Source of the DNA: Nostocoides sp. Soil756
Lineage (GTDB): Bacteria; Actinomycetota; Actinomycetes; Actinomycetales; Dermatophilaceae
Assembly: GCF_001428065.1 (NCBI RefSeq)
Contig: NZ_LMSE01000001.1
Coordinates: 249,674-285,385, forward strand
DNA length: 35,712 nt
Reading direction: 5' to 3'
Shown: positions 1-8,415 of the stretch, in pieces
How positions within the stretch are numbered: position 1 is the first letter of the stretch
How the letters are laid out: each line of letters starts with the position of its first letter
The notes under the pieces: generated by a model
The model's input: the letters and a program-made list of their open reading frames with translations, nothing else
Told to the model about the DNA's origin: nothing
Database searches by the model: none
Translations under genes and position numbers: made by a program

Positions 1-19
1 TGGATAGGGAGGTTCTTGG

Positions 20-1423
20 TCAGCCGGCCAAGGCCTCGGGAATGACGGGACGAGATCGTGGCGCCGGGAGTTCGTCCGTCACTGCGCCGAGTCTCACCAC
101 GGCTTCGGCCATGGAAAGGCTCAGGAGCGATGCATCGCCCAGGTGAAGCTTGGCAGTGGGTCGCACGGGAGCCAGCCCGAGCTTCTTGATCAGCTGCTCA
201 CCGGCCGCACGAGCCAAGGGTGGGGGCACGCTATTGCCAACTTGCCGGTGGCCATGCCAGTTCGTCACATGGAACCGAAACCAGTCAGGGTAACCGTGGA
301 GCCGCGCCGCTTCTCTGACCGTGATGACCCGATCTTGTGTCGGGTGGATTGGGCGGGGGGAGGTATGGGCGCCTCGCTCCGCGCCCGTACCTGCGCGGAG
401 GGTTCGCGCGTGACCGCTGGGCGTCAGCCGGAACAGGCGGCTCCGCGGTTCCACGGATCCAGGCTTGGTTTGACTGAATCGACGTATGGTGTCCGCCGAG
501 TGCACCGTCCTTCGTGACCCGCTCAGCAGGGTGTGGTCCCACACCCGCGGATGTGAGAAGTCCCAGCTCGGGGTGTCGAGGCCCGCTAGTAGCCGTGAGT
601 ATGAGCCCGTCGAGGAATTGCGCAGAAGCGTGCCCGTAATCCCAAGTGGCACTTGGTCGCTGGACAACAGAGAGGGATAGTGAGCAGGGTTCGGCAGCCC
701 TTCTAGGGCCTCCCCCACCAAGACCGTCGCTCGTCCTGCGGAAGACGGCACCCCCGGGTCTCCCCCTCGCCAGCCCAAGACAATTACGCGTTTCCGGCTC
801 TGCGGAACTCCGAAGTCCTTTGCGTTCAGGGTTCCGTCGGTACCGGACAGCTGGTACCCCGCCCCGCGTAAGCGGCGAAACGCCTCCTCACGAACACTTG
901 CGAACCGTTCGTCGAGAATTCCGGACACGTTCTCAAGGCAGAGTACCCGTGGCCTCAACTGCTCGACGATACGGACGAACTCAAGGATCATTTCGTTTCG
1001 GGCATCACCCTCTTCCCGCTTGCCGCCAGTGGAGAATCCCTGACACGGAGGTCCACCGATTAGAGCGTCTACGGTTCCGTCCCATGCGGTCGTGGGGCGG
1101 AGTTTCGTGACACCTCGCGCAACCGCCTGCATGAGGCGGTCAGAGCTCAGCTTCCGTAGGTCACGGCAGACGATCTCGCACTCGGGAAAGTTGTATAGAT
1201 GGGTGGCAGCGTGAACGGGGTCATACTCAACTGCGGCCACGATGTCGAAGCCAGCCTGTTCGAAACCCAGGCTTAACCCTCCCGCCCCGGCGAAGAGGTC
1301 GACCGCGATGGGCCTTGGGGACCCAGTCGCTTGCGGAGCGATTGCAGGGGGTCTAGCGGAGAGCGTCACACCGTACACGATCGCACAGTTGGATGCCCGC
1401 ACCCCGAAATGCCGGCAGATCAA
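20..1423 (-). CDS. DNA (cytosine-5-)-methyltransferase, Dcm/type II family
   Basis: Probable methyltransferase that moves a methyl group from S-adenosylmethionine to C5 of cytosine in a specific DNA site. All main C5-MTase motifs are visible: motif I DLFAGAGG near residue 42, motif IV GGPPCQGFS with catalytic Cys127, motif VI ENV at 164-166, motif VIII QSRKR at 208-212, motif IX REAARLHGYPD, and motif X GNSVPPPLARA near the C-terminus. The variable stretch between VIII and IX (about residues 225-370) should be the target-recognition domain, so the site cannot be read from sequence. At 467 residues it is a normal length. The start is uncertain: in-frame GTG codons lie 15-20 codons after the listed ATG, and the fold only needs residues from about 38. 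It is divergent from the GHKL ATPase gene, about 70 bases away. That pairing suggests a restriction-modification or other defence role rather than an orphan methylase. Base composition is lower in GC than the core genes to the right. Confidence 0.93.
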   Translation of the reverse strand: MICRHFGVRASNCAIVYGVTLSARPPAIAPQATGSPRPIAVDLFAGAGGLSLGFEQAGFDIVAAVEYDPVHAATHLYNFPECEIVCRDLRKLSSDRLMQAVARGVTKLRPTTAWDGTVDALIGGPPCQGFSTGGKREEGDARNEMILEFVRIVEQLRPRVLCLENVSGILDERFASVREEAFRRLRGAGYQLSGTDGTLNAKDFGVPQSRKRVIVLGWRGGDPGVPSSAGRATVLVGEALEGLPNPAHYPSLLSSDQVPLGITGTLLRNSSTGSYSRLLAGLDTPSWDFSHPRVWDHTLLSGSRRTVHSADTIRRFSQTKPGSVEPRSRLFRLTPSGHARTLRAGTGAERGAHTSPRPIHPTQDRVITVREAARLHGYPDWFRFHVTNWHGHRQVGNSVPPPLARAAGEQLIKKLGLAPVRPTAKLHLGDASLLSLSMAEAVVRLGAVTDELPAPRSRPVIPEALAG

Positions 1424-1494
1424 GCGTGTCGGGCGGTACCTTGCGGCAGGATCAGGCTATGGACGGGGGGAGTGCCCCTCAGAGGGAGGATGGC

Positions 1495-2880
1495 ATGACG
1501 CTGAGGCGCGACAGGGCAACTGCGAAACCCTCGAAGGAGTTCTTCGTCAGGATGCTGACACGAGACATCTCCCTCGAAGACTGCATCCTTGACCTGGTCG
1601 ACAACAGCATCGACGGAGCCTGGGAGAAGTCCGGGTACGAGCCGACGGAGCTCAGGAGTGACTCGGCCCTGAGCACTTACCACATCAAGATTCGTTTCAG
1701 TGACGACGACTTTTCCATAGTTGACAATTGCGGCGGAATCACCCTAGATAACGCCGCCGACTATGCATTCACGTTTGGCAGAAGGCACGACCAGACCCCT
1801 GATGACTTCTCCGTCGGCGTGTACGGCATCGGCATGAAGCGCGCAGTCTTCAAGCTCGGAGACTTGATTGAAGTCCGCAGCACGTACGTCGACGGGCGTC
1901 GGACCGAGAGCTTTCGGGTTCCAATCAATGTGCCCGAGTGGATGGCACGCGACGCTGAGCCCTTGGCGAACGGAGAACTCGCCGCGCCCAACTGGGATTT
2001 CGACATCGAGGAATCCGACCCGTTGTCTGAACCAGGAGTCGCGGTTCACGTCAGCGGCTTGCGCCCAGAGACATCGGAAAGGCTGGGCGACCCCACCTTT
2101 GAGCGTCGCCTACGCAGAATTTTGGGCCGCGATTACATGGTGCCGCTTATGCGGGGTTTGCGTATCTCGGTGAATGGGGTCGCTGTCGTTGGGTACAAAC
2201 TGGAACTTCGCGGAAGCGACGACTTCGCCCCCATGCGCGACAGATACACAGATGGCTCCGTCACTGTGGAAATTTTGGCCGGAATGGTATCCGTTCCACC
2301 AGACTCTGCTGAGCCAGACGAGAATGACCGTCGAAAGATTGATCCTTCTGGCTGGTATATCCTCTGCAACGGCAGAGTCGTCTTGGCGGCAGACACTAGC
2401 AACTTGACTGGGTGGGGCGAGGAACTGCCCCGGTGGCACCGTCAGTACAGCGGGTTCGCGGGTATTGCACTGTTTAGTGCTGCGAGGGCCGCGGACCTAC
2501 CTATGACCACAACCAAGCGAAGTGTTGACGTGTCGCACGCAGTCTATCGGCGTGCACTTGCGCGGATGCACGAGCCCACCCGGACGTGGATTAGCTATAC
2601 AAATGCTCGCAAGTTCGATTTGGATGAGGCGAAGCACAGAGAGAGATCGGCCGAGCCAAAGGAACTTGTTGCCGTCGAGGCTCGTCCGACTGTGAGAGTT
2701 CCTACGTTGGCCACGCCGACTCCCACCCGGGAGCGGATTGGAAATATCAACTATGCCATGCCGTACAAGCGGATCAAGGCGCTCGCCAAGGGCCTCGGAG
2801 ACTCCCAACTCTCCTACCGGGATGTTGGAATCAAGTCCTTTGACTACGCGTACGAGACTCTGGTTGGCGAGGACGACTAG
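1495..2880 (+). CDS. GHKL (Hsp90/MutL/MORC-like) ATPase, probable defence protein
   Basis: A 461-residue ATP-binding protein of the GHKL fold. The N-box ILDLVDNSIDG lies at 31-41, the G1 box IVDNCGGI at about 75-82, and the G2 box GVYGIGMK at 108-115, followed by a long unassigned C-terminal part. In most GHKL ATPases the catalytic base is a Glu four residues before the N-box Asn. Here that position is Asp33, a conservative change. The start was chosen at ATG 1495 because a strong ribosome site (GGGAGGA, 1484-1490) lies just before it; the longer reading from 1393 has no such site. GHKL ATPases of the MutL/MORC type are known next to DNA methyltransferases in restriction-type operons (described by Iyer, Abhiman and Aravind). 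Its stop codon overlaps the next gene, so the two are probably translated together. The exact function is unknown; an ATP-driven clamp or sensor on DNA is a family-based inference. Confidence 0.82.
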   Translation: MTLRRDRATAKPSKEFFVRMLTRDISLEDCILDLVDNSIDGAWEKSGYEPTELRSDSALSTYHIKIRFSDDDFSIVDNCGGITLDNAADYAFTFGRRHDQTPDDFSVGVYGIGMKRAVFKLGDLIEVRSTYVDGRRTESFRVPINVPEWMARDAEPLANGELAAPNWDFDIEESDPLSEPGVAVHVSGLRPETSERLGDPTFERRLRRILGRDYMVPLMRGLRISVNGVAVVGYKLELRGSDDFAPMRDRYTDGSVTVEILAGMVSVPPDSAEPDENDRRKIDPSGWYILCNGRVVLAADTSNLTGWGEELPRWHRQYSGFAGIALFSAARAADLPMTTTKRSVDVSHAVYRRALARMHEPTRTWISYTNARKFDLDEAKHRERSAEPKELVAVEARPTVRVPTLATPTPTRERIGNINYAMPYKRIKALAKGLGDSQLSYRDVGIKSFDYAYETLVGEDD

Positions 2881-3839
2881 TGGCCAGCTCATCCAGCACC
2901 ATCAACTACAGTGTGCGCCAGAACAAGACCATTGAGCGAAGCCTTGTCTTCGGAGGGCTACGGCGTTATGGCACGATCATTGATCTTAGGCATGCCGTGT
3001 ATGTCGGGCTCGGTTCGGCTTGGTTCGTGGATTTCGAGATGGCGCATCGAGAGCTTGGATTGCGGGACATGATTTCAATCGAATCCGACGAAGTCACATT
3101 TAGCCGAGCGAACTTCAACCGGCCGTATCGGACGGTCGAATTGGTACGCGGCATCTCATACGATGAAGTGCCCAAGCTGCTCATACGTCCGGATCTCACC
3201 GAGAGACCATGGGTGATATGGCTGGACTACGACCAGGCACTCGATGGGTCCAAGGTTGACGAGCTCGTCGGTCTCGTCGAGCGCGCGCCAGCCAACACGG
3301 CGCTACTCGCGACGTTCAATGCTCACCCGCGAAGCTATGGCGACGGGATCTTAGACCGACTGGAAACCTTCCAGGGACTGTTTGGGGACGCCTTCCCGAG
3401 CGAGGACTTCCCAAATGGAGTAGGCCTTGCCAATGACGGCAAGGTGCAGGCTGCGACGGCCGAAGCACTGCTGTCGACTCTCGATTCCGCCGCGCGGCGA
3501 GTCGCTCGGCCCGGCGGCTTTGTCGCCGGGTTCAATCTTCACTACCAAGATGGCTCTCCGATGGTCACGGTGGGTGGCTTTCTGCCATCCCCGGAGAAGG
3601 CCGATGAAGTGCAGCAGTTGGTGGCCGGGGGCCCTTGGCGTTGCTTCACAACCGAGTCCATCAACACCCCTCCGCTTACGCCGAAGGAGATTTCTGCGCT
3701 GAGGACACTGCTTCCTGCTGATACGGAACCGTCACGGGAAGACCTGAAGAGGCTGGGGTTCGACCTCGAGGAACGGCACCTGCGATCCTTCGTGCGGTAC
3801 TACCTGGACTACCCCCTCTTCGTCCAGGCAGCCCGCTGA
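2880..3839 (+). CDS. Rossmann-fold / methyltransferase-like protein in the ATPase operon
   Basis: 319 residues, not assigned to a named family. The N-terminal half looks like a class I methyltransferase Rossmann fold. A strand and glycine turn (AVYVGLGSAWF, 39-49) are followed by an acidic strand end (MISIESDE, 64-71), where SAM enzymes bind the ribose. A later strand, WVIWLDYD at 111-118, resembles motif IV. There are no obvious zinc ligands or membrane segments. It starts with GTG, and the last base of the upstream TAG stop is the first base of this GTG (TAGTG). This means tight coupling to the GHKL ATPase and almost certainly a shared function. It could methylate a substrate, or be a catalytically dead partner that binds SAM or a nucleotide. 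The methyltransferase reading rests on fold-level features only. No promoter is seen ahead of it. Confidence 0.72.
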   Translation: MASSSSTINYSVRQNKTIERSLVFGGLRRYGTIIDLRHAVYVGLGSAWFVDFEMAHRELGLRDMISIESDEVTFSRANFNRPYRTVELVRGISYDEVPKLLIRPDLTERPWVIWLDYDQALDGSKVDELVGLVERAPANTALLATFNAHPRSYGDGILDRLETFQGLFGDAFPSEDFPNGVGLANDGKVQAATAEALLSTLDSAARRVARPGGFVAGFNLHYQDGSPMVTVGGFLPSPEKADEVQQLVAGGPWRCFTTESINTPPLTPKEISALRTLLPADTEPSREDLKRLGFDLEERHLRSFVRYYLDYPLFVQAAR

Positions 3840-3908
3840 GCCCAGCCGTCGATTTTGGTGCTAGCGATCATTACGGGCGCTTGCCGCAGGAACATCCAAA
3901 CAGTCGCC

Positions 3909-3914
3909 TAAAAT
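3909..3914 (+). promoter_or_regulatory. -10 element of a probable leaderless promoter for the PIN-nuclease gene
   Basis: TAAAAT lies so that transcription would start about seven bases later, on or next to the ATG at 3922. No Shine-Dalgarno sequence precedes that ATG. Leaderless transcripts are common in Actinobacteria. No convincing -35 is seen. Confidence 0.45.
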
Positions 3915-3921
3915 ATTTGCC

Positions 3922-5007
3922 ATGAAGTCTGTCGTCCTGGATGCCACACAACTGACGCGTGACTACATGTGTCGGGGGCTTCCATACCAGCTCATACAGC
4001 ACATGCTGCACTCGACTTGGGTCGATGTCTATGTTCCTGCTTCTGTGTTCGAGGAGACGGTCGCGAACTTCGCTCACGCCACGCGTGAGGCAAATAGCGC
4101 CCTCGAGCGACTGAATCGATCGCAGCGTCTCTTGGGGCTGCCCGCCTACGCGGCGGTGGCATATGACACCTCCTTTGATTACAGGAGCTACTTGGCGGAG
4201 CGGTTCGACGAACAGCTGGGAATCACGGTTCTGCCCTGGCCCAAGGTCGATCACGAAGACCTAGTGAGGCGGGCAGTCGAGCGTCGTCCCCCTTTCGACG
4301 CGAAGGGAGGCGGTTATCGCGACTCTCTCGTGTGGGCGGATGTCGTAAACATGGCTGCTCGTGGCTTTGATGTAGCACTCGTCTCGCACGATAAGGCCTT
4401 CGCCGGTCCTGGTGGGGGCCTGGCCAGGGAACTAGCAGAGGAGGTCCGAGGTCTGGCTGGTGCGGTCGAACTTGTGATCGACTTTGGGGCTTGGCTCGTG
4501 GATCATCTGCCCTGGAAGGAAACCGACCTGCGTTCAGCGGTCGGCCGCAGCCGGGACGAAGACTTCTGCCACTACTACCTGCAGTCGGATTTGCAGAACG
4601 AACTTGAGCCCGCCGTGGAGGAGTTGGGCTTCACGGCAAGCCCTCTACAGTGCAACATCACGTCCGTAGAATGGGGCGGCGAGCTTGCTTCTGTGGAGGC
4701 CGCAGAGGGGCCCGATGGCATGGTCCTCGTGAAGTACGATCTATCTCAGGATGTGGCATTCGAAGCCACCTTCCTTGAAGGGTTTGTGCCAGAACAAGCC
4801 TGGAACATCTCGGAGGTTCATGGCTTCAGAGGAGTCCGCGTCAATGGAGTTATACCCATGATTGCTCGGGTGGCCGTACTGTTCGGAGATCCGGAGTTTG
4901 GATTCACCATCGAAGACCTGTCCTGGCGTCGGGTGGACGGCCGGGGTAGGGGTCTCGAAGCGGTCCCATTCGATCCCGACCACCCCGCTCTCTTCGACTT
5001 GTCGTAA
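3922..5007 (+). CDS. PIN-domain (DUF4935-like) nuclease, possible defence effector
   Basis: 361 residues. The N-terminal ~165 residues fit a PIN-like ribonuclease fold. Asp7 is in the first strand (SVVLDATQ), Glu44/Glu45 in the first helix (VFEETVANF), Asp134 in the pattern GYRDSLVWAD, and Asp157 in LVSHDKAF. These acidic residues normally hold the metal ions that cut RNA. The pattern GYRDSLVW followed by a strand ending in xxHDKxF is typical of DUF4935 PIN proteins. The C-terminal half (about 200-361) is beta-rich and not recognised. It lies 82 bases after the Rossmann-like gene on the same strand, and has its own probable leaderless promoter. Together with the DNA methyltransferase, GHKL ATPase and Rossmann protein, it would be the most likely toxic effector of a defence module. 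The PIN call is fairly firm; the link to the other three genes is inference from position. Confidence 0.78.
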   Translation: MKSVVLDATQLTRDYMCRGLPYQLIQHMLHSTWVDVYVPASVFEETVANFAHATREANSALERLNRSQRLLGLPAYAAVAYDTSFDYRSYLAERFDEQLGITVLPWPKVDHEDLVRRAVERRPPFDAKGGGYRDSLVWADVVNMAARGFDVALVSHDKAFAGPGGGLARELAEEVRGLAGAVELVIDFGAWLVDHLPWKETDLRSAVGRSRDEDFCHYYLQSDLQNELEPAVEELGFTASPLQCNITSVEWGGELASVEAAEGPDGMVLVKYDLSQDVAFEATFLEGFVPEQAWNISEVHGFRGVRVNGVIPMIARVAVLFGDPEFGFTIEDLSWRRVDGRGRGLEAVPFDPDHPALFDLS

Positions 5008-5586: not shown

Positions 5587-5829
5587 TTGCGCTCGCGCGC
5601 GCTACCGGGGGACACAGCCAACTTGCAGTCATGGATCAAGGGCAACATCATCCCGCTGCTCCTTCTGCTCATCGCCGTCATGCTCTTCGTCTTCGCCCAG
5701 CGCGGTGACAACGCGAAGGCCATGCGAGTCGTGGCCGGCGTGATTGTGGCGCTTGCGGTGCTGGGCGTCGCCAGCAGCGGTCGCGCCGACGAGGTCGGCA
5801 CCTGGCTCGCGTCGCTCGTCACGGGCTGA
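5587..5829 (+). CDS. small membrane protein, pilin/TrbC-VirB2-like, of a conjugative element; start probably frameshifted
   Basis: The body reads NLQSWIKGNIIPLLLLLIA..., with one long hydrophobic segment, a short polar loop (QRGDNAKA) and a second hydrophobic segment. This layout fits the small two-helix proteins that begin conjugation gene sets in actinobacterial integrative elements. A good ribosome site (AAGGGG) precedes an ATG at 5574 that would give MNEFVALA, a plausible start, but that frame is one base off the body. The body frame offers only TTG codons (5587 or 5623). A one-base change in the GC-repeat around 5589-5600 would join them. It is therefore either a decayed gene, a sequencing error, or a protein using a TTG start. 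The stop is three bases before the next start, so an operon is likely. Confidence 0.6.
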   Translation: MRSRALPGDTANLQSWIKGNIIPLLLLLIAVMLFVFAQRGDNAKAMRVVAGVIVALAVLGVASSGRADEVGTWLASLVTG

Positions 5830-6855: not shown

Positions 6856-8199
6856 TCACGCGACAGCAGCCAGCCCAAGGACGCGGACCCTGCCCTCACG
6901 GTCGCGAACCATCGCAATCTCGAGGTCTTGCTCCTTGCCCGCGATCGAGGGTGACTCGCTTTCCGCCAACTCCCGAAGTCTCGTGGGCCACTTGAGCAAG
7001 TCGCGCACCTCCCCCCTCGTCATCAGGTTGTCTATGAACCTCTCGGGGGGCTGGATCTGGACGCGGGCAAGGGAGAGCAGGAACGAGGCCAACTGACGTT
7101 CAAGGTCGTCAACGGCCTCCTGCTCTGTTCTCAGCACCGACATGAATCGCGGCAGCGTCATTTCGTGTCCCTGCTGAGCATGTTCTACGGCCTGAAGGAC
7201 TGCGATCCTTCGCTTGGTGGCTATCGCGAAGGCAGCCATCCTCAGCCGCGCACGGAACTCACCCGCGTTTTGGTCGATGCCCGGGAAGGCTCTCCGGAGC
7301 CGTTCGACTGACACACGGTCGTTCTCAAATGAGTCCAGCTCTTGCTGCCATTCACTTGCTCTACGAGCAGCTGCTTCTACCGCCGTGTCGATGTTGTGCA
7401 CCGCTGAGTCAAGGCCGAGCGAGTGGCCGATCTTGCCTTCATCAAGCAGCACCGCGGCTGCCTTGTCGATTGCCTTGCTTGAGGCCCTCAGCGCGTCTCG
7501 TTCGTCGTCCAGCCTTGCCTGTTTGAGTTCCGTGAGTAGCGCGGTAATTCTTTCAAGAGCTCGGCGCCGTTGCTCCTCGGCGTAGACGGTCGCAGCCACT
7601 GCGATTGCCAGGAGCACGAGTGGCGCCGCGACTGTAATGGCTCCGACACCCCCGGCCGCTACGGCCCCGCTTGCTCCCGCCGCGGCAACACCAGCTGCGC
7701 CCTCGCTAGACGCCACCGCCGCTGCGGTGACCGGTACGAAGGTCGCCTGACCCACGATCCCAGCCGGCCCAAGCACGCCGCTGTAGATGCCAGCCGCAGC
7801 TTGGGTGGACGGCATGGATCGTGCGATGCCTTGTCCCATCTGCGCCGCCACCTTCGCTGGGACGACCATCCGATATAGCGTCTCGCCGCCCCGCGAAACA
7901 GTCGGCGCAGCTGCCCGCAGTGCCTCGCTCGAATGTTGAATCAGGCTCGTCAGGCTCAAGGCGAGTGGCGTGGTGGCGTCAAGCACTCGGCCGCCGTGGA
8001 CCTGGTGCTCCAACGGAAGCGGATAGGCCTCCAGTGAGACCACGGGCGTATCCAGAAGCGACGCGAGGCCATCTCGCAACTGCTCCAGACGCTCAGGTGT
8101 GATCTCGCCGCTCGGAACCCTTGGGACAAGCCCTGCTACTTTGCTCGGCTCCGTCGCGATAGTCCAGACGGGTACCCGCACCAGATCATCCCTTGCCAT
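6856..8199 (-). CDS. unrecognised Ala/Gly-rich membrane protein with helical C-terminal half
   Basis: 447 residues from the ATG at 8199, chosen because GGAAGGAG lies about eight bases before it; a longer frame upstream lacks this. I do not recognise the family. Residues 1-130 are mixed and soluble-looking. Residues 138-205 are very rich in Ala and Gly, with long hydrophobic runs (GVLGPAGIVG, AITVAAPLVLLAIAVAAT), so there are one to three membrane passes. Residues 206-380 are charged and helical, probably coiled coil (EEQRRRALERITALLTEL). The end (about 384-447) is polar, with a short strand-rich tail. Gly/Ala-rich membrane segments next to coiled coils occur in membrane-acting toxins and defence effectors, but nothing here proves that. 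It stands alone, between the conjugation remnant and tRNA-Ala. Confidence 0.75.
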   Translation of the reverse strand: MARDDLVRVPVWTIATEPSKVAGLVPRVPSGEITPERLEQLRDGLASLLDTPVVSLEAYPLPLEHQVHGGRVLDATTPLALSLTSLIQHSSEALRAAAPTVSRGGETLYRMVVPAKVAAQMGQGIARSMPSTQAAAGIYSGVLGPAGIVGQATFVPVTAAAVASSEGAAGVAAAGASGAVAAGGVGAITVAAPLVLLAIAVAATVYAEEQRRRALERITALLTELKQARLDDERDALRASSKAIDKAAAVLLDEGKIGHSLGLDSAVHNIDTAVEAAARRASEWQQELDSFENDRVSVERLRRAFPGIDQNAGEFRARLRMAAFAIATKRRIAVLQAVEHAQQGHEMTLPRFMSVLRTEQEAVDDLERQLASFLLSLARVQIQPPERFIDNLMTRGEVRDLLKWPTRLRELAESESPSIAGKEQDLEIAMVRDREGRVRVLGLAAVA

Positions 8200-8415
8200 C
8201 GCGTGCTCCTTCCGTCCCGACTCTGTTGTCACTCTAAGCGGCCGCACGGCCCGCGCTGTGTGCGTTGGGTTAAGCCGGCACCGCTGAGCCATTCAGCGCA
8301 CGCCAGTTTGCAGCTCCGGTCCCCGCCACGCATACGTACATCAACGATGTCTTCCCGACCAAGACTGGGTTGTATGTCCTCGCACTGCCGTACTTCTCTG
8401 GGGTACCGGCACGAA

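Follow-up and report, generated by a model that had tools for sequence, protein, structure and literature searches.

A MORC-type ATPase and its Methyltransf_35 partner form a conserved gene pair that accompanies several DNA-modification systems

The stretch of DNA analysed here, referred to as the window, comprises 35,712 nucleotides of Nostocoides sp. Soil756 (positions 249674-285385 of contig 1 of the 3.47-Mb genome) and adjoins gyrA/gyrB and the tRNA-Ala and tRNA-Ile genes. Its left end carries a gene for a C5-cytosine DNA methyltransferase (Dcm2), a divergent gene for a MORC-type GHKL ATPase and, directly behind the latter, a gene for a partner with the class I S-adenosylmethionine (SAM)-methyltransferase fold, hereafter MT35. 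The MORC and MT35 genes were found to constitute a fixed pair that occurs with C5 methylases, within DISARM class 1 and beside phosphorothioation-type genes. A first-pass annotation had placed these three genes, together with a downstream gene for a PIN nuclease, in a possible four-gene defence module; its four open reading frames (ORFs) and their spacing were borne out, with Pfam domains for all four products.

In animals and plants, MORC ATPases are agents of transposon silencing; for their bacterial relatives a part in restriction systems was predicted in 2008. Mza, a system holding a bacterial MORC, has reportedly been tested as a whole. A small, fixed two-gene unit recurring across C5 methylation, DISARM and phosphorothioation-type genes makes the action of MORC proteins on unmarked DNA tractable.

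Conservation of the MORC-MT35 pair

The main features of the unit in the window are as follows.

20..1423, minus strand: Dcm2, C5-cytosine DNA methyltransferase (PF00145, E = 2.3e-59; PADLOC MTase_II, 2.4e-127)
1495..2880, plus strand: MORC-type GHKL ATPase, 461 residues, with a GHKL domain, an S5-type domain and a short helical C-terminus (HATPase_c_3, 1.1e-9)
1591..1614, plus strand: GHKL N-box DLVDNSID, residues 33-40 (first acidic residue Asp in 67/73 sequences and Glu in 6/73)
2350..2382, plus strand: MORC-defining motif GhXhhpXXRhl, here GWYILCNGRVV, residues 286-296 (73/73)
2515..2517, plus strand: invariant Lys341 of the TTTK motif in the S5-type domain (73/73)
2880..3839, plus strand: MT35, class I SAM-methyltransferase-fold partner, 319 residues (Methyltransf_35, PF20553, 4.4e-78)
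3000..3014, plus strand: MT35 motif I, Y41-x-G43-x-G45 (Y41, G43 and G45 in 64/64)
3219..3233, plus strand: MT35 WLDYD motif, residues 114-118, at the motif IV position (W114 and D116 in 64/64)

Translation of dcm2 may begin with the TTG at 1423 or at a codon further downstream, and the longest ORF of the MORC gene begins at 1393, upstream of the chosen start at 1495. The MORC and MT35 genes overlap by 1 nt (TAGTG at 2878-2882).

A six-sequence GHKL alignment was run against GTDB to collect relatives, and the 80 closest of the 377 obtained were examined by running iterated profiles over the ORFs of each locus, genes being taken as longest ORFs and not from a trained gene finder. In 79 of the 80 loci MT35 came immediately after the MORC gene and in the same orientation; in the exception (L033:9944-11470) the GHKL ORF ended in roughly 20 N-terminal residues of MT35, a broken pair at the end of a contig. 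The grouping of GHKL and MT35 is far beyond chance, because 79 of 80 relatives have it. Junctions between the two genes were mostly a 4-nt overlap (31 loci), a 3-nt gap (14) and the 1-nt overlap of the TAGTG type (13). Sequence distances of MORC and MT35 were correlated (Spearman 0.68 over 3,486 locus pairs, which are not independent of one another; 0.73 outside DISARM). The GHKL alignment was restricted to rows of 430-480 residues (73 including the window, with a subset of 58 also used), the MT35 alignments to rows of 300-332 residues (66 and 64 rows, including the window), and L012 was excluded from the GHKL tree.

MT35 was present in two of 396 genomes of the phylum, both with a GHKL gene beside it, and on two plasmid records, both with a GHKL gene near (3 kb lie between them on the Sinorhizobium meliloti plasmid); a scan of viral contigs with MT35 gave no relative. 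L005 was discarded as an MT35 relative ahead of the large alignments, being a weak match that lacks the conserved motifs. Directly before the pair, L034, L037, L038 and L041 share an unnamed conserved small protein (166-222 residues; no Pfam match for that of L038), and L022 and L024 share a different such gene. A second, longer MORC of 563-582 residues with the MORC motif lies near the pair in L030 (7992-9713), L046 (7729-9477) and L064 (13755-15446), hinting at MORC heterodimers.

Columns of the N-box, DxGG and GxGxK motifs were invariant or nearly so in the 73 GHKL sequences. The S5-domain motif GhXhhpXXRhl is described as uniting MORCs against other GHKL proteins (PMC2292703); it occurred in all 73 sequences with no further match across their 33,253 residues, was missing from gyrB and from two HEF_HK GHKLs, and was found in both MORCs of genome G002. 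A fold search returned MORC3/4/2 as the best folds. Lys341 is a candidate lysine finger. A nuclease concealed in the C-terminus of the MORC was also considered; Pfam gave none there, and the fold search scarcely covers residues beyond 405. As for MT35, the profile score was 263 bits against a curated cut-off of 27. Motif I is expected to form the SAM-binding turn, and WLDYD, assigned to motif IV by eye, lies at the end of strand 111-116 in the structure model.

Modification systems accompanying the pair

A C5 methylase was detected in 63 of the 80 loci and Vsr in 45. Fifteen loci corresponded to DISARM class 1, and in all of them the order was DrmMI (MmeI-like)-MORC-MT35-DrmA. Fourteen of these loci have a C5 methylase, 14 have DrmD and 11 have Vsr. 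PADLOC names of the DISARM genes were checked on L088, and an annotated example lies on a Microvirga plasmid. The DISARM set constitutes a single group in the GHKL tree (81/91). Two of its members have an extra gene between MT35 and DrmA (L060:12411-13613 and L070:12406-13611), of which that of L060 carries AspBHI-N and Mrr domains; a relative lies in L044.

The other 65 loci contained a C5 methylase in 49 cases, Vsr in 34 and both in 33. Neighbours resembling restriction endonucleases in these loci fell into four groups, namely two PD-(D/E)XK-like clusters, HNH_2 and HNH_5-like; one member of each cluster was tested, two being assigned by motif alone and the HNH_5 match (E = 0.0079) falling below the cut-off. 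Phosphorothioation-type genes also appeared next to the pair; the loci concerned, and L076, belong to the 16 whose available stretch shows no C5 methylase. Directly before the pair, L079 has DndC, DndD/PbeC and DndE/H-like genes, and L091 has DndD/PbeC and DndE/H-like genes, the first gene of its row falling into one cluster with the DndC of L079; the gene assignment is firm for L079 and partial for L091. In L087 a PbeA-like gene follows the pair, with a DndC-cluster gene further on and a PbeC-type gene also present, and in L092 a PbeC-like gene and an Mrr-type nuclease precede it. A PAPS-reductase-like neighbour was seen in L055, L061, L074 and L090 (tested in L090), L061 having a PbeA-cluster gene as well. 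The eight loci labelled phosphorothioation-like require two changes on the GHKL tree. In L076 an N6_N4_Mtase precedes the pair.

The window, L015 (Sphaerisporangium) and L017 (Enemella) fall into one GHKL clade (100/97), the closest relatives of Dcm2 are found in these same two loci (59% identity in L015, 52% in L017), and dcm2 points away from the MORC gene in each of the three; on these grounds Dcm2 belongs to the unit. MT35 agrees for L015 (52%), that of L017 being only fourth-ranked (42%). On the far side of dcm2, L015 and L017 have an abutting vsr gene where the window has an insertion sequence (IS).

The PIN gene

3922..5007, plus strand: PIN_12 nuclease with an unnamed C-terminal half, a neighbour judged to lie outside the module (PF16289, 2.5e-15)

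This gene follows MT35 on the same strand after 82 bases, and G+C is alike in the GHKL, MT35 and PIN genes (58-60%). With a five-sequence profile, PIN relatives were found in none of the 80 GHKL-MT35 loci. They occurred in five of 394 genomes of the class, the own genome included, and on 12 plasmid records; a viral contig scan gave no relative. Four PIN relatives had no GHKL or MT35 gene in the stretches examined around them: one on Rhodococcus plasmid pR8C2 and those of G225, G515 and G541 (the G541 stretch being only 3.4 kb). The closest relative found (51%; L100:9478-10992, in G225) lies directly behind a Vsr gene, and the 19.5 kb examined around it yielded no methylase, GHKL or MT35. The PIN family is in restriction-island company at least once, yet outside the MORC-MT35 unit. 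As judged by eye, all five aligned sequences, that of the window among them, keep the three acidic active-site columns.

By its distribution the PIN gene looks like an unrelated neighbour in chance company, and it was rejected as a component of the module on the 0/80 result. Of the module proposed in the first-pass annotation, the core of methylase, GHKL ATPase and Rossmann protein (MT35) is real, of defence type and recurs elsewhere; the set of four genes was not encountered again in the loci examined.

Genomic context of the unit

1..16, no strand: right copy of the 16-bp direct repeat (left copy at L002:11854)

The adjacent stretch to the left, L002, contains an NgoMIV-family endonuclease (L002:10818-11681; PF09015, 3.2e-23) 2.0 kb from the window, together with a second C5 methylase (Dcm1) directly beside it, Vsr (7.6e-17) and a SIR2_2 protein. 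The earlier statement that no ordinary restriction endonuclease accompanies the genes does not hold; the enzyme seemed absent because the window begins where it does. Both Dcm2 and the endonuclease are in the island, but the direct neighbour of the latter is Dcm1 rather than Dcm2. The left-hand genes are separated from dcm2 by the IS, which was called by eye with no transposase search and is bounded by the direct repeat TGGATAGGGAGGTTCT, whose right copy lies beside the dcm2 stop codon. The Vsr left of the IS shares 55% identity with that of L015, 54% with that of L017 and 53-54% with several DISARM Vsrs; being no closer to the former two than to the DISARM proteins, it may or may not be a displaced member of the unit. 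The SIR2_2 protein (586 residues, 57% G+C, L002:7242-9002) is likely a separate defence gene.

Downstream of the unit, the ORF at window 6518-7096 matches the N-terminus of an integrase of G002 at its start (71% over 48 residues) and, weakly, the integrase end in its later part. From these matches it is a decayed integrase, and the island was therefore probably delivered by an integrative element. The same chromosomal hotspot is filled in G002 by a set with a C5 methylase and Vsr. A small protein at window 5587-5829 has a weak T4SS_pilin match (E = 0.0032, below the cut-off) and is perhaps what remains of a conjugative element. The 478-residue protein at window 6856-8292 has no Pfam match and occurs in one of 12 genomes of the genus, the own one.

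Proposed mode of action and alternatives

We propose that the core consists of Dcm2, MORC and MT35, the MORC-MT35 pair being a fixed unit that joins DNA-modification systems and licenses an exchangeable nuclease, and we put the chances of this reading at about even. Dcm2 would mark host DNA at its sites, as members of its family do. The MORC, judged by its fold and motifs, would dimerise on ATP and close round or loop DNA like other GHKL+S5 proteins; DNA looping was proposed for MORCs by Iyer et al. (PMC2292703). MT35 bound to it would, as its fold and conserved pocket residues suggest, read the host mark or gate the ATPase through SAM. On unmarked DNA a lasting clamp would license a nuclease contributed by whichever system carries the pair: in the C5-methylase sets Vsr, HNH or PD-(D/E)XK enzymes, DrmA/B/C in DISARM, and Mrr or Pbe-type partners elsewhere. 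The co-occurrence with such genes is observed; the licensing we infer from it. In the window the nuclease could come from the left side of the island (the NgoMIV-type enzyme or Vsr, across the IS), or else the module may be crippled or silence without cutting. A precedent for nuclease control by a GHKL protein is VcSduA, in which a change in either the ATPase site or the nuclease site abolished anti-phage activity (PMC12137116).

Several observations count against this reading. No nuclease is common to the loci, since an endonuclease-like neighbour was found in 15 and Vsr in 34 of the 65 non-DISARM loci; the sole candidate nuclease gene directly adjacent to the unit in the window is that of PIN; and 16 of the 65 lack a C5 methylase in the available stretch, some contigs being short. 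Distances of GHKL and C5 methylase (the best-scoring methylase per locus) were correlated at 0.46, and at only 0.23 outside DISARM, which indicates that Dcm2 is often exchanged.

The lack of a common nuclease suits the idea that the pair silences rather than cuts, with the MORC compacting or looping unmarked DNA so that replication or transcription is blocked, MT35 as the sensor and the adjacent nucleases as separate systems. Eukaryotic MORCs are the nearest folds; Pbe, also found beside the pair, stops virus propagation without cutting DNA (PMC6459918); and some sets, such as L102, show nothing evident beyond methylase, Vsr, MORC and MT35, although not all flanking genes were identified. Vsr or other nuclease genes nevertheless recur next to the pair, and we met no compaction data for a prokaryotic MORC, with no search dedicated to it, so that we regard silencing as rather unlikely. 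A broader proposal is that MORC-MT35 is a switch between self and non-self that is independent of the kind of modification: one principle, for instance the deformation of unmarked DNA in the MORC clamp, would serve it to read 5-methylcytosine, DISARM-type and phosphorothioate marks alike, and it would silence unmarked DNA uncut, as eukaryotic MORCs have their own form of silencing; MT35 would be the control subunit, gated by SAM, of this bacterial counterpart. This proposal is speculative, and quite unlikely on present evidence. Vsr itself invites another view, in which the pair serves modification or repair and not defence. Here the MORC would join Vsr in mending the T:G mismatches left by deamination of 5-methylcytosine, in the way that MutL assists Vsr, and MT35 would be an accessory methylase. 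The parallel with MutL and Vsr is drawn in PMC2292703, and where Vsr is present (45/80) its conserved D and GCFWH residues are kept. We consider this view improbable, as 35 of the 80 loci have no detected Vsr, L079 and L091 combine the pair with phosphorothioation-type genes and have no C5 methylase in the available stretch, and the patchy spread (one of 12 genomes of the genus) and hotspot position suit defence better.

Two further explanations concern the window copy. It might be a decaying remnant in which the IS and a later rearrangement took Vsr or the nuclease, with loss of restriction. In its favour, the IS abuts the dcm2 stop codon where L015 and L017 have vsr, and the decayed integrase fragment is nearby. 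The three reading frames are, however, full length, the Pfam match of the methylase reaches the end of the domain, no GHKL motif is damaged, and Vsr and a restriction endonuclease survive left of the IS; we give little credence to decay. The original four-gene scheme, in which Dcm2, GHKL, MT35 and PIN act jointly and PIN cuts RNA to halt growth once unmarked DNA is sensed, could draw on the short gap and shared strand, the similar G+C, the retained acidic columns and the G225 relative behind Vsr. The growth-arrest step falls with PIN membership, to which the 80 loci without a PIN relative and the four relatives without GHKL or MT35 are opposed, and the scheme is very improbable.

Comparison with known systems

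The pair is shared with DISARM class 1, where 15 of its 80 relatives lie between DrmMI and DrmA; a profile search found no drmA, drmB, drmC, drmD or drmMI in the window's island. It is likewise shared with Dnd/Pbe-type systems, following DndC-DndD/PbeC-DndE/H-like genes in L079 and preceding a PbeA-like gene in L087, whereas no such genes were seen in the island. The pair was rejected as PbeB or PbeD, which are of 66 and 152 residues (PMC6459918). VcSduA/paraMORC3 Shedu is a comparable case, a GHKL ATPase being needed there together with a nuclease for phage defence; its nuclease (DUF4263) is fused in a single protein, described without methylase or MT35 in the available text (PMC12137116).

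The HEF_HK/Response_reg_2 sets (Bellieny-Rabelo 2021, PMC8011034) also combine a C5 methylase, a HATPase_c_3 GHKL and a Rossmann-like partner, often with Vsr, and L111 and L112 show this order. They differ in their GHKLs, which have 969-979 residues, no MORC motif, and HEF_HK plus a second HATPase domain (tested in L111), and in their partner, which belongs to PF19192 and not PF20553. The window-family GHKL profile did not match HEF_HK GHKLs, the window proteins matched neither HEF_HK (PF19191) nor Response_reg_2 (PF19192), and the host genome had no PF19192 match. Kinship with these sets was rejected on the grounds of the partner family and the missing MORC motif.

The unit is similar in kind to the prokaryotic MORC restriction-type operons of Iyer, Abhiman and Aravind, described in 2008 (PMC2292703), which have a GHKL+S5 ATPase with the MORC motif, a C5 methylase, Vsr and other nucleases, lateral mobility and hotspot positions. 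About 70% of their neighbourhoods are reported to have a superfamily II (SFII) helicase (PMC2292703); none was seen in the window's module, the large non-overlapping island ORFs up to PIN belonging to other families or to the IS. A partner of MT35 type is not mentioned in the available text of that paper. No family of PADLOC-DB 2.0.0 matched the window GHKL, MT35 or PIN at E up to 1; among four further GHKLs there were three weak matches, the best (1.7e-4) to MzaB, and among four further MT35s none. In line with the first-pass annotation, which recognised no known set here, no PADLOC-DB model covers the GHKL or Rossmann protein, but sets of the MORC/C5 methylase/Vsr kind had been described in 2008 (PMC2292703). 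A literature search, which did not cover the original DISARM gene list, found no description of the MORC-MT35 pair, and no paper naming PF20553 or Methyltransf_35.

The combination of MORC, C5 methylase and Vsr has thus been known since 2008, and what appears new, within the literature covered, is the MT35 partner, its fixed pairing with MORC and the spread of the pair over DISARM and Dnd/Pbe-type systems. The pair suggests a form of DISARM class 1 that carries a MORC, and it provides a context for Methyltransf_35.

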